Part shown: positions 34,168 to 40,140 of the stretch, piece after piece
Layout: each line of letters starts with the position of its first letter
Numbering within the stretch: the first letter of the stretch is position 1
Origin: Rhizobiaceae bacterium
GTDB taxonomy: Bacteria > Pseudomonadota > Alphaproteobacteria > Rhizobiales > Rhizobiaceae
Direction: 5' to 3'
Assembly (NCBI GenBank): GCA_020628035.1
Contig: JAHDFS010000001.1
Location: 7,207-71,206, forward strand
DNA: 64,000 nucleotides
Program-made: the position numbers and the translations under genes
The notes under the pieces: model-generated
Databases searched by the model: none
What the model was told of the DNA's origin: nothing
What the model saw: the letters and a program-made list of their open reading frames with translations, nothing else

Positions 34168-34590
34168 ATGCAGGCAAAAGAAGCAGCTAATTATTTGGGC
34201 ATATCACAACGGATGTTGCGGCATTACGAAAAAGTTGGGCTGCTCGACATTCGCCGCAACGATAATGGCTACCGCATCTATACCGATGCTGATTTAAGAC
34301 GTGCGCGGCGCATACGCGACTTTATCGCGACTGGTTTTTCAACACGCGAAATCCATTTGATGAGCGCATGTTTGTCAGATGAAGGCGACGGACCTTGCGA
34401 AGGCGGCATTACGCAGATGATGGAAAAGCTCGCTCATATCGACCAATTAATGCTGGATCTAAATCAGAAAAGAGAAGCCGTACTTGCGCGTATTTCTTCA
34501 TTGAAAGCGGCTTTTCCTGAGAACAATTTAGATGCCGATATACAACCAGCCAAAACCGATAATCGGGTGCTCGAACACGAGCTAAACTGA
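34168..34590 (+). CDS. MerR-family transcriptional regulator
   Basis: About 140 residues: N-terminal MerR winged helix (MQAKEAANYLGISQRMLRHYEKVGLL), the wing NDNGYRIYTDADLRRA, then the dimerisation helix. Two cysteines in the loop ACLSDEGDGPCEGG (C-X8-C) could bind a thiol-reactive ligand or metal, though the spacing is not that of CueR or ZntR, so this is speculation. ATG 34168 with GAGGA upstream is preferred to the GTG at 34156. By position it regulates the SDR through the 33223-33253 promoter. Confidence 0.9.
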   Translation: MQAKEAANYLGISQRMLRHYEKVGLLDIRRNDNGYRIYTDADLRRARRIRDFIATGFSTREIHLMSACLSDEGDGPCEGGITQMMEKLAHIDQLMLDLNQKREAVLARISSLKAAFPENNLDADIQPAKTDNRVLEHELN

Positions 34591-34744
34591 CGCAAAAATC
34601 GCAATTTTTAATCTGTATCTGCGTCAAATCAGCGAATTCCATCGCGGATTTTCGTGATATTTTTGATGAAAACCGGACATTAATCCTGGTAATTATCCCA
34701 AAATGAGACTTTTTTGCAAAATTTTTTTTCGAGGAAGTGATTGA

Positions 34745-34787
34745 TTTTGCACGCGGTTTCAAAACGGTTTTGCATCCGCGTGCAAAA
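34745..34787. repeat. 43-bp quasi-palindrome
   Basis: In the 354-bp gap between the MerR gene and the chemoreceptor. The outer arms TTTTGCACGCGG (34745-34756) and CCGCGTGCAAAA (34776-34787) are perfect inverted repeats of 12 bp; nested inside is CAAAAC-G-GTTTTG (34760-34772). Together 19 of 21 positions pair around a single central base. A further TTTTGCAAAA palindrome lies at 34712-34721. It may be a complex operator with several TTTTGCA half-sites or a cruciform/hairpin. The rest of the gap is AT-rich with no gene. Confidence 0.6.
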
Positions 34788-34944
34788 GTTTATTTTTGTT
34801 TACCTTTTCTTATCCAAAATAAAATGTACTCGAAAAACGGGAAGGTCGAACCTTGTGGGGAATACAATTTAGCTTCGACGTGCATGATGCCATCTTCGCT
34901 CATTAACTGAGATGTTTTATTGGTTGCTTGGATGGGAGGTTCGT

Positions 34945-37212
34945 ATGCGAATTTCAAAAAAATTACCCTTAGCCGCGGTAAGCTTAACACTATTTGCAAT
35001 TCTAGTCGGTGCGGCCACGAGCCTTTCCATCAGTACAAAATTTTTACAAGAAAGTGCGCAGGAAAAACTGCAGGCCATTGCCGATGGCAGACGCAACCAG
35101 CTTGAAACTTATCTTCAGTCGATTAAGGACGATGTCCGATCCATTTCCACCAATGCCCTTTCCATTCGGGCGGTCGATAAATTTGCATTTTATTTTCCAT
35201 ATGCAGGTGACGATCCAAAGGTAGAACTACAACGACGCTATATCACCGACAACCCTCACCCATTGGGCGAACGACATAAATTGGATTCAGCTGGGACTGA
35301 TGGATTTGAAGGACAGCATGGCGAAGTGCATGGATTTTATCGCGATTTCGTTCAAAAGCGCGGATATAACGATTTGTTCTTGATCGCAATGAACGGAGAC
35401 GTGGTTTATTCGGTCAACAAAACCGATGAATTTGCCACCAATCTTGTGGACGGCGAATGGAAAGATACAGGCCTTGGCGACGCATGGCGATGGGCCATGG
35501 AATCCGAAGAAGGCACATCATTCTTTGTCGATTATTCCAAATATGGACCAAAGAGCGATATGCCGGCGTCTTTTATCACCCAGGCGATATTCAAAAAAGG
35601 TCGTCTCAAAGGCGTTCTCGTCCTCGAACTCCCAAGCGATAATATGAAGCGCATTGTTAGCAATGCCACAGGTTTGGGTGAAACAGGTGAAACACTTTTA
35701 CTTAAATCTGATGGAACGATGATTTTTGATTCTGCAAAGACAGATGAAAATGACGCCCTGGCCACAAAACTAAATCTAAGCCAAACACTCCTTGAGCAAT
35801 CATTCGATAAACAACCCGTAGATCAACTTGAAGGTTACCGCGGCGAGAGCTTTGAAATTTCAACAGCGCGTGTAGATTTTGCCGATGCAAACTGGATCAT
35901 TGGTGCATTGATTTCAAGCGATGAAGTATTTGCAGGTGTCGCAACATTACGAAATTATACATTTGCAATTTCGCTCGTGCTCATTGCCATATCAATGGGT
36001 CTGGCACTTCTCGTATCTGGCTCCATTACACGACCGATCAGCAATGCAATTGCCAGCATGAAGGACTTGGCTTCCGGCAATACAGATATCAATCTTGATG
36101 GTGCCGATAGAAAAGACGAGATCGGAGAAATTTTCCAATCCGTCGGTGTGTTCCGCGATGCAGCGCTTGAAAAAACTCGTTTAGAAAATGAAAGCGAGAA
36201 AACCCGCGCTAAAAACGAGCAAGAGCGTCAATTGGCGGAAGATTTAAAGGCGCAAGATGCCGCTAAGATCCAGGAAGCTGTAGCACAATTAGCTACAGGC
36301 TTAACCCGACTATCTGATGGCGACTTAACCGTCCAGCTCAACCAACAATTTGACGGAAGTTTAGATCAAATTCGAACAGACTTTAATTCGTCTGTTGGCA
36401 AGTTAAGCGCAACTTTGGCTCAGATCAGCCAAGTATCTAAAGGCCTTAGCATAAACTCCAACGAAATCAGCAATGCGACCAATGATCTCTCGCACCGTAC
36501 TGAAACCCAAGCCGCGTCCCTTGAAGAAACCGCAGCTGCCTTGGACGAGATTACTGCAACCGTTCAAAGAACGGTCGAAAAAGCCAAAGACGCGTCCAAG
36601 AAGGCCAATGATGCACGTCAGGATACTGCAGCTTCCAGCGAAGTTGTTGCCAATGCCGTTGCCGCAATGAATGGCATTGAAAAAGCCTCCAATGACATTA
36701 ATCAAATCATCAATGTGATTGATGAAATTGCATTCCAAACAAATCTGCTTGCGCTGAATGCGGGCGTCGAAGCTGCACGCGCTGGTGAAGCAGGAAAAGG
36801 CTTTGCGGTGGTTGCACAAGAAGTGCGTGAACTCGCAGGGCGTTCTGCTGAAGCTGCAAAAGAAATCAAAATTCTGATTTCCGCGTCAGAAAATGAAGTT
36901 TCCAATGGTGTTCGTCTTGTTCAAGGTGCGGGTGAAGCGCTTGAAAAAATCTCCAAACATGTCACCGAAATTGATGACAAAATTGGCGATATCACCATGG
37001 GCGCGTCCGAACAATTGGCTGGCATTCAAGAAGTCAACAGCGCGGTAAATTCTATGGACAAAGTCACGCAACAAAATGCTGCCATGGTTGAAGAAAATAC
37101 GGCTGTGACACACGAAGTCTCCTCGCAGGTCAATGATCTCAACCAGTTGATTTCAACATTCCGCACAAATTCTGAAACGGCTCCTGAGGAGCAAAATCAA
37201 AGTGCAGCATAA
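34945..37212 (+). CDS. Methyl-accepting chemotaxis protein
   Basis: About 755 residues: membrane span at about 8-28, a large periplasmic sensor (about 30-340, double-Cache-like in length, with [14 protein letters not shown] and [17 protein letters not shown]), a second span (about 342-365), HAMP region, then the cytoplasmic signalling domain whose hairpin tip reads [33 protein letters not shown]. No CheR-docking pentapeptide is seen at the C-terminus (ends QNQSAA). The open frame reaches 34912; ATG 34945 with GGGAGG five bases upstream is preferred. The ligand is unknown. No other chemotaxis gene is near. Confidence 0.95.
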
Positions 37213-37899
37213 TGAAATTCGCAACGAACAGTACGAGGCAAATCTGTTGGGGCCAAAAGAGCTCCTTCTCAGATATCGTCCGAAGTGAATTCGCAGCTTC
37301 TTGGATCAGGTTCTTACGCATTAAAGATCGCGATTATCCCCTGACGTAAAATCGCCAATTGATTTAACCCAGATCAAGGTCCAAATTTTCACTTCATTTT
37401 TCACAGTAAAGTGATGGATTACACAGGCGGATCTGACGCTATATCCCGACGTCTTGCAACCAGGTTTTTTTACAATTTGCTCTTTACAACTATATGCAAT
37501 CTAGAATAGAAGAGCAAAATTAGTGGTAAAAATTATCTAAAATGCCATCATTAACGATATTTTTTTATGCACAGCTTCAAATTGTACTTTGCAAGAAAAG
37601 TATCAGCAAGCTATCGAATTATACATGTTAACGTTACTTCAAGTATTATTACTAGTAAAAATCGGTAATATTTGATTTAGAAATAAAAATATTATTCTTT
37701 ATTTTACTCTATATTTGAAGTATTTTTCCTGCTGACAAATAAATATGCAATCGACTTAAAGTTGTGCATTTGTAAAAAAATTAACGAAACCTTAAAAAAA
37801 ACAGTTGCATCCCCCAAAGATTTCCAATCACAATCTCAACCTGTAATTGATTATTCTGAATTTCTTAAATTAAGTATTTTAGTAAATTGGGGATCTACT
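37213..37899. other. Long AT-rich intergenic region before cellulose operon
   Basis: About 690 bp with no convincing gene. The second half is strongly AT-rich. A sequence TTAACCCAGATCAA at 37364-37377 is one mismatch from an FNR/FixK box (TTGAY-N4-RTCAA). The size suits an extensively regulated promoter and leader for bcsA. I see no recognisable riboswitch. Confidence 0.4.
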
Positions 37900-40140
37900 A
37901 TGCGTAACTTAGTTGGTTTTTTCTGGTTGTTTTTAGCGATTGCCGCTGTTGTCATGATCGCTCAACCTGTCGGCATTGCCGCGCAAAGTTTCATATCACT
38001 GGCGATCATCTCATTGCTCGCAATCATCATGTTTATCCGTACCCAAGGTGTGTGGCGGCATATCTTTTTAGCATTAGCATCAGTCTGCGTGCTTAGATAT
38101 GCTTTCTGGCGTGCCTTTAACACACTGCCACCCGCAGATGATCTTTATTCTTTCATTCCTGCCGTCATATTATTTGCAGCCGAACTTTACTGCATGTTGA
38201 TGTTGGGCATGAGTTTGTTCGTATCCTCAGATCCCATTGCACGGCCGAAAGCGCCAACCTTTGATGATCACATCTTGCCGTCAGTCGATATTTTCGTCCC
38301 AAGCTATAATGAAGATGCAAAAATTTTAACGCTCACTTTAGCTGCCGCCAAGAAACTTGATTACCCAAAAGATAAGCTTACCGTTTATCTCCTTGATGAC
38401 GGTGGCACAGATGAGAAATGCAATGGCAGCGATAGAGCAGCTGCCATTGCAGCGAAGGCTCGACGCAAAGAACTGCAAGATCTCTGTGCAAGATTAGGTG
38501 TCATTTATCATGCGCGCGAAGAGAACACCCATGCAAAAGCTGGCAATCTCAATGATGGTTTAAGTGTATCAACTGGTGATTTGGTTGCAGTATTTGATGC
38601 TGACCATATCCCAAGTCGAGAATTCTTAACCGAAACCGTCGGGCATTTTGTCAGCAATGAAAGACTGTTTTTAGCGCAAACACCGCATTTCTTTTCAAAC
38701 CCCGATCCGATTGAAAAAAATCTCGGCACATTTGGCAAAATGCCATCAGAGAATGACATGTTTTACCAAAGGATCCAGCTTGGTCTGGACCGCTGGAACG
38801 CGTCGTTCTTTTGTGGATCAGCAGCCATTTTGCGACGCGATGCGTTAGAGCGTGTTGGCGGATTCTCTGGCATTACAATCACAGAGGATTGCGAAACGGC
38901 ATTGTCATTACACGCACGTGGATGGGAAAGCATCTACATCAACAAACCAATGATTTCCGGCCTTCAGCCTGAAACACTCTCAAGCTTCATTGGTCAGCGT
39001 TCTCGTTGGTGCCAAGGCATGATCCAGATCATGCTTTTAAGAAACCCTCTCTTTCAGGCAGGCTTATCTGGTGCGCAACGCATTTGTTACCTGACCAGCA
39101 ATCTATTTTGGATGTTCCCTCTCGCTAGGATCGCCTTCCTGATTGCGCCATTATTGTTCATCATATTCGACATGAAGATATATGTGTCTTCCTCAGATGA
39201 GTTCATGGCCTATGCCTTAACCTATCTGATCGTTGGCGAAATGATCAGAACATATCTCTATGGTAAAGTTCGGTGGCCCTGGATTTCAGAGATCTACGAA
39301 TATATCCAATCGATATATCTCATTCGTTCAATCATCGCGGTTATGCTGTCACCACGTTCACCAAAATTTAACGTGACGGACAAATCATCAGGCAATACTG
39401 AACGAGCCTATCTATCCAATTTAGCACCCGTTTATATCATTTTATTTGCGATATTATGCGCCTCACAAATCTACGCAATTTATCGTTATCAAACAGAACC
39501 TGAAATTGGTGGACTGCTCCTTATCGTAGGTGCATGGAACCTTCTTAATCTCACCGTAGCAGGCGCTGCTTTAGCGGTAATCATAGAAAAACCATGGTCA
39601 AAAGATCCGCAAACATTGCCTGTTTCTCGTGAGTGCGAGATGCATTTAGGTGACCGAACAATCCCGGTGCTTCTAACATCCATCTCAGGAACAACTGCAA
39701 CGATCCGACCGCTCAATGGAGAGATCATTGGCGCCGACGAACGAACCAGCGAAAAGAAGCGACTTTGGGCACAAAATGAAGCCACAGCAAACTTGATTTC
39801 TTTCATTGATTTCACCTTTAAATCCGGGATCAATCGCAAGGGTGAGGATATCGAACTTGAACTGGATCCATCAACGGAAGAGTTTGAACTCATATCAAAT
39901 CTCATGATGGCAGATATGAATATTGCAAGAGACCAACGCGCGGCTCTCCAGAAACGAAAAAGTTTCATTCTGATGACATTTAAGCTCATTGGTTGGGCAA
40001 TTACATCTCCGGTCAAAGCCATCTCCATGTGGATTTTTGACCGAGGCAACGACGATCTCAAAATGGAGCAGTCGCGTTCAAATATAGGCTTAAAAGACAA
40101 AAAAGGTTCGACGGTGCAACACCAGGTCGAGGCGGTATAG
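37900..40140 (+). CDS. bcsA: Cellulose synthase catalytic subunit BcsA
   Basis: About 746 residues from ATG 37900 (GGGGATC upstream; an open frame reaches 37762). It is a GT2 processive glycosyltransferase in the inner membrane with N-terminal spans, the catalytic D residues (LLDDGGTDE, FDADHIPS, TITEDCETAL) and QRSRW (the QxxRW motif) on the cytosolic face, then further spans and a C-terminal PilZ-like domain (about 560-650). It polymerises UDP-glucose into cellulose. In the PilZ region neither a clear RxxxR nor D/NxSxxG can be seen (SKDPQTLPVSRECEMHL; LLTSISGTTATI), so c-di-GMP control may be altered. bcsB follows after 3 bp. Confidence 0.95.
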   Translation: MRNLVGFFWLFLAIAAVVMIAQPVGIAAQSFISLAIISLLAIIMFIRTQGVWRHIFLALASVCVLRYAFWRAFNTLPPADDLYSFIPAVILFAAELYCMLMLGMSLFVSSDPIARPKAPTFDDHILPSVDIFVPSYNEDAKILTLTLAAAKKLDYPKDKLTVYLLDDGGTDEKCNGSDRAAAIAAKARRKELQDLCARLGVIYHAREENTHAKAGNLNDGLSVSTGDLVAVFDADHIPSREFLTETVGHFVSNERLFLAQTPHFFSNPDPIEKNLGTFGKMPSENDMFYQRIQLGLDRWNASFFCGSAAILRRDALERVGGFSGITITEDCETALSLHARGWESIYINKPMISGLQPETLSSFIGQRSRWCQGMIQIMLLRNPLFQAGLSGAQRICYLTSNLFWMFPLARIAFLIAPLLFIIFDMKIYVSSSDEFMAYALTYLIVGEMIRTYLYGKVRWPWISEIYEYIQSIYLIRSIIAVMLSPRSPKFNVTDKSSGNTERAYLSNLAPVYIILFAILCASQIYAIYRYQTEPEIGGLLLIVGAWNLLNLTVAGAALAVIIEKPWSKDPQTLPVSRECEMHLGDRTIPVLLTSISGTTATIRPLNGEIIGADERTSEKKRLWAQNEATANLISFIDFTFKSGINRKGEDIELELDPSTEEFELISNLMMADMNIARDQRAALQKRKSFILMTFKLIGWAITSPVKAISMWIFDRGNDDLKMEQSRSNIGLKDKKGSTVQHQVEAV

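Follow-up and report, generated by a model that had tools for sequence, protein, structure and literature searches.

A 43-bp palindrome upstream of a Rhizobiaceae chemoreceptor gene resolves into two predicted LacI-family operators, probably of the inositol regulator

The window analysed here, a 64-kb stretch of Rhizobiaceae DNA, contains a chemoreceptor gene preceded by the gene of a MerR-family regulator (Table 1). The chemoreceptor start is backed by a GGGAGG and by conservation in two genomes of the genus, G001 and G002; an upstream ATG at 34912 is lost in G001, its frame there being interrupted by a 1-nt gap. The 5′ leader (34831-34944) is 99% identical to that of G002 and 73% identical to that of G001, and it folds no better than shuffled sequence (z +1.0). 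It includes a mini-ORF at 34884-34910, ATGATGCCATCTTCGCTCATTAACTGA (MMPSSLIN), which retains its start and stop in G001 (MMPSSLRS) and could be a leader peptide or could have arisen by chance. Scanning the region upstream of the chemoreceptor for the sigma-70 consensus gave no match; the tentative promoter of Table 1 falls in a conserved stretch just 3′ of the second operator described below. The chemoreceptor has no sequence relative in the PDB. In its predicted model (pLDDT 89.6) the sensor resembles dCache domains, mainly those of amino-acid receptors, at 10-16% identity, a resemblance between structures that does not decide the ligand. The next gene after the chemoreceptor (37762-40140) codes for the catalytic subunit of a cellulose synthase, scoring above the TIGR03030 cut-off.

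Table 1. Genes and sequence features around the palindrome, in window coordinates.
Feature	Position	Strand	Remarks
MerR-family regulator gene	34168..34590	+	Upstream neighbour; Pfam; no evidence of binding at the palindrome
TTTTGCAAAA decamer	34712..34721	no strand	Judged incidental
Operator O1, TTTTGCACGCGGTTTCAAAA	34745..34764	no strand	Putative LacI-family (IolR-type) site, CG at dyad
Spacer between O1 and O2	34765..34767		3 bp; O1 and O2 centres 23 bp apart, about two helix turns
Operator O2, TTTTGCATCCGCGTGCAAAA	34768..34787	no strand	Putative LacI-family (IolR-type) site, CG at dyad
Tentative promoter, GTTTAC-N16-TAAAAT	34798..34825	+	Guess from conservation and position
Chemoreceptor gene	34945..37212	+	755 aa; dCache_1 - HAMP - MCPsignal (Pfam); likely regulated gene

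Between the two genes lies a 43-bp quasi-palindrome (34745-34787) with arms of 21+21 nt around G34766, complementary at 19/21 arm positions (2 mismatches). Its description in an initial annotation of this DNA was borne out: the outer 12-bp arms are perfect, 34745-34756 (TTTTGCACGCGG) pairing with 34776-34787 (CCGCGTGCAAAA), a perfect 6-bp inner dyad surrounds one base (CAAAAC-G-GTTTTG, 34760-34772), a separate palindrome, TTTTGCAAAA, stands 23 bp upstream of the 43-mer, and the setting is non-coding, with the MerR gene ending at 34590 and the chemoreceptor starting at 34945. The runner-up among 21+21 palindromes in the 64 kb has 6 mismatches (15/21 complementary), the best palindromes in ten Markov-simulated windows have 5-7, and about 7e-5 palindromes of this form with at most 2 mismatches are expected by chance per window.

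We read the palindrome as two adjacent putative LacI-family operators, O1 and O2, and not as one giant operator, and this reading is well supported by their sequences. Both are even 20-bp palindromes, within the 16-22 bp range of the family, with symmetric pairs at 7/10 positions in O1 and 8/10 in O2. The operator consensus is TTTTGCANNCGNNTGCAAAA, with CG at the dyad; this CG, a published hallmark of LacI-family operators (PMC4052901), is found at the dyad centre of both window sites and is absent solely from O2 of G002. When the window was scored with a matrix trained only on sites from other genera, O2 (19.65 bits, p 5e-8) and O1 (19.4 bits, p 6e-8) were, in that order, the two top-ranking sites of the 64 kb; the third-best score was 9.9 bits and the simulated maximum 17.6 bits. 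Reverse-complemented, the O1 core CGCGGT gives ACCGCG, the core at the iolG/iolE promoter. Sites in the genus tend to consist of two unequal halves, TTTTGCAACC and TTTTGCACGC, and the TTTTGCACGC half of O1 and of O2 points outward on both sides. Since the better half-site is thus the outer one in each operator, the outer arms are long and O1 and O2 are near-inverted copies that make up one long palindrome, and the mirrored unequal halves explain the nested structure first seen. What had been taken for an element far larger than a normal operator resolves into two standard 20-bp operators, and the multimer that it was thought able to bind would be two dimers, one predicted for each operator. 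The O1-O2 block stands 158-200 bp before the start codon, and the 158-bp gap is slightly beyond the usual 30-140 bp.

As to further copies, a question raised by the initial annotation, the 20-bp unit recurs in the genome and the whole 43-mer has no other copy. With 2 mismatches or fewer, TTTTGCA-N6-TGCAAAA has 74 matches in the genome and its reversed control 12; a stricter pattern, TTTGCANCCGNNTGCAAA, searched with no more than 1 mismatch, gave 4-6 matches versus 0 for the control in the window's genome (G000), and counts of the strict motif exceeded the reversed control across the four genus genomes (G000-G003). The upstream TTTTGCAAAA decamer looks incidental; it occurs twice in the window versus 0.7 expected, and a count of 2 was reached in 17/100 shuffles. 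We rejected it as a third operator, as it scored -18.5 bits with the operator matrix and is lost in G001.

Among the genomes searched, close orthologues of the chemoreceptor (sensor domain 88-99%) were found only in G001 and G002, and both keep the two-site block upstream of the gene, with its spacing unchanged. Absence from relatives had been named as a sign of a chance or decaying element; the double site is instead present in both relatives that have the chemoreceptor. O1 is identical in G002 and matches at 18/20 positions (90%) in G001, where its inner end is changed and its score falls to 15.2 bits. O2 is identical (100%) in G001; in G002 it matches at 18/20 positions, has CA instead of CG at the dyad and falls to 11.3 bits. 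Over the 126 bp upstream of the element, G000 and G001 are 47% identical. The number of stem pairs drops from 19 to 17 in both G001 and G002 with no compensation of any pair able to form, and these changes, seen in a comparison of three sequences only, are suggestive evidence against a hairpin. Chemoreceptor homologues elsewhere in the family (31-50% identical), whose whole loci were scanned, had no such operator sites; the predicted link between chemoreceptor and operators is confined to three genomes of one genus. The 43-bp dyad is a real, conserved regulatory feature of a known type.

The candidate regulator is the LacI-family inositol regulator of the genus, which we label IolR. Its gene (G000:C49:1434-2435, minus strand) encodes a 333-aa LacI-family protein and adjoins iolG-like/iolE genes, across two contigs in G000 and on one contig in G002 and G003. 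Operators in G000 are located upstream of iolG-like/iolE (L081:6611), iolI-like/ABC-iolDCBJG (L086:12543) and scoAB (L087:4046), and counterparts of the iol and scoAB operators are present in G001-G003. The iolD, iolC and iolG products score above NCBIfam cut-offs, and those of iolB and iolE match their own family only, below cut-off. The scoAB site, lying between scoAB (3-oxoacid CoA-transferase) and an AsmA-like gene, is of IolR type in 4/4 genus genomes (the others at L089:5619, L027:1711 and L029:1723). In G000 and G002 a weaker IolR-like site, TTTTGCACGCGGTTGTCAAA, lies between pckA and the gene of a chvI-like response regulator (L088:3093, L030:1836), and may link inositol control to gluconeogenesis. 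In G003, about 7 kb separate iolR from genes whose sequences resemble cheA and cheY (L078:1-1184). Genomes of the genus carry 14-18 LacI paralogues each, and one paralogue seems to act at a related site whose core is TACGTA. A pair of TTTTGCATACGTATGCAAAA sites preceding a sugar ABC operon, with 57 bp between them (L010:841-917 in G000:C55; L040 in G002:C16) was rejected as a member of the IolR regulon, as a LacI paralogue (C55:7896) is encoded on the same contig beside the sugar ABC locus; the C55 sites are a separate LacI regulon.

To see how the motif and the regulator are distributed, we surveyed 200 genomes of the family at E <= 1e-60 and found IolR in 20 of them. It was not found at this threshold in G001, probably because that assembly is incomplete (82% complete, 490 contigs). 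A scan of genome contigs with IolR turned up a single close relative, a Rhizobiaceae MAG. Orthologues 51-69% identical occur in 16 genomes of other genera, mostly within iol clusters, and their recognition helix, SRSAVSR, is almost invariant. In those genera copies of TTTTGCAACCGGTTGCAAAA adjoin the regulator gene, fall within the iolG/iolD divergon or precede a sugar ABC operon. The motif is present in 18/20 genomes with IolR versus 5/180 others (p = 3e-19), and in 15/17 versus 5/179 when the window's genus is left out (p = 2e-16); these p-values overstate the strength of the association, as the genomes share descent, and the pattern nevertheless crosses many genera. This strong co-occurrence points to IolR as the protein that would act at O1 and O2. 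We consider it highly probable that the two sites are an IolR operator pair in the chemoreceptor promoter region, by which the chemoreceptor would be co-controlled with the operons for inositol catabolism and transport.

Another of the 16 LacI genes of G000 might be the one served by the two operators, for example a PckR-type central-carbon regulator. The weaker site between pckA and chvI in G000 and G002 would suit such a regulator, and in S. meliloti PckR controls pckA, with opposite action reported for single versus double sites (PMC8877191). We nonetheless consider this assignment improbable and rejected O1 and O2 as PckR operators: the published core, TNNAANCGNTT (PMC8877191), is absent from O2, whose core TGCATCCGCG is without AA and TT, and is half matched in O1, which has the TT half only. 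Moreover, it is at iol operons that the genus has its best-matching sites, and in other genera the motif follows the LacI gene that is linked to iol.

A further possibility is that the palindrome works as a nucleic acid structure: a DNA cruciform or a long RNA hairpin, both of which the initial annotation had put forward, or a terminator. Its predicted folding is strong (RNA z -3.5 on the + strand and -5.2 on the - strand; DNA z -5.3), but good folding is expected of any such palindrome, and two further stem pairs are broken in each of G001 and G002, uncompensated within the stem. The 20-bp halves stand singly elsewhere as operators, no intrinsic terminator (GC-rich stem, short loop, T-run) was matched in 34700-34960, and an Rfam search of the region returned nothing at E <= 1. 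We regard a structural role as very unlikely. A long intergenic palindrome could also be a REP- or MITE-like element, mobile or repeated, or the decaying remains of one, an origin to which we give scarcely any credence: the 43-mer occupies a single place in the genome, a search of 40 relatives at E <= 1 found it only at the orthologous place in G001 and G002, and the flanks diverge faster than the element.

Under the preferred assignment to IolR, two IolR dimers would bind O1 and O2 from almost the same side of the helix, perhaps cooperatively. LacI-family intersite distances peak at 13, 22 and 32 bp, and in the survey that reported them, with tandem sites at 1118 operons, the 22-bp peak was taken as a sign of cooperative binding (PMC4052901); the 23-bp spacing of O1 and O2 is near that peak. 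IolR would control the chemoreceptor jointly with the iol operons. Repression relieved by a pathway-derived inducer is the commonest mode of action in the LacI family, and as a first choice we suggest that repression would be lifted by an inositol-derived inducer, so that chemoreceptor synthesis would occur in the presence of inositol. Activation is also possible, since the operators would lie upstream of the tentative promoter. The sites, their conservation and their recurrence at iol operons can be read from the sequences themselves; cooperative binding, the sign of regulation and inositol as the effector are inferred. Whether a LacI-type inositol regulator took over a chemoreceptor in this genus by means of mirrored operators, such that inositol catabolism directly sets chemotactic preference, with inositol or a similar compound perhaps being sensed by the receptor too, is in our judgement evenly balanced.

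The use of inositol is common in root- and soil-associated bacteria, and an inositol-regulated chemoreceptor would connect nutrient catabolism with swimming behaviour. The modest novelty lies in the target, a chemoreceptor predicted to belong to an inositol regulon; in a literature search limited to open papers, none was found that describes an inositol LacI regulator controlling a chemoreceptor. The locus also illustrates that two unequal operators facing each other can mimic one exotic cruciform.

Tandem operators of this general kind are known for RafR and ScrR (21-22 bp apart; PMC4052901), which likewise are 20-bp even palindromes with a CG dyad, placed about two turns apart in the promoter region. 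The pair described here differs from them in being mirrored, with unequal halves that form one long palindrome, and in having a chemoreceptor as its target. Seven LacI groups of IolR inositol regulons are listed in PMC4052901, and a LacI-type inositol regulator of R. etli is cited in PMC8877191. As in these LacI-type IolR regulons, iol genes and a sugar ABC transporter are associated with the regulator, and their promoters contain sites; unlike in the listed regulons, a chemoreceptor and scoAB would be added here. PckR of Sinorhizobium meliloti is similar in being an alphaproteobacterial member of the LacI family with single and double sites, and differs in its core motif, TNNAANCGNTT, and in its central-carbon target set.
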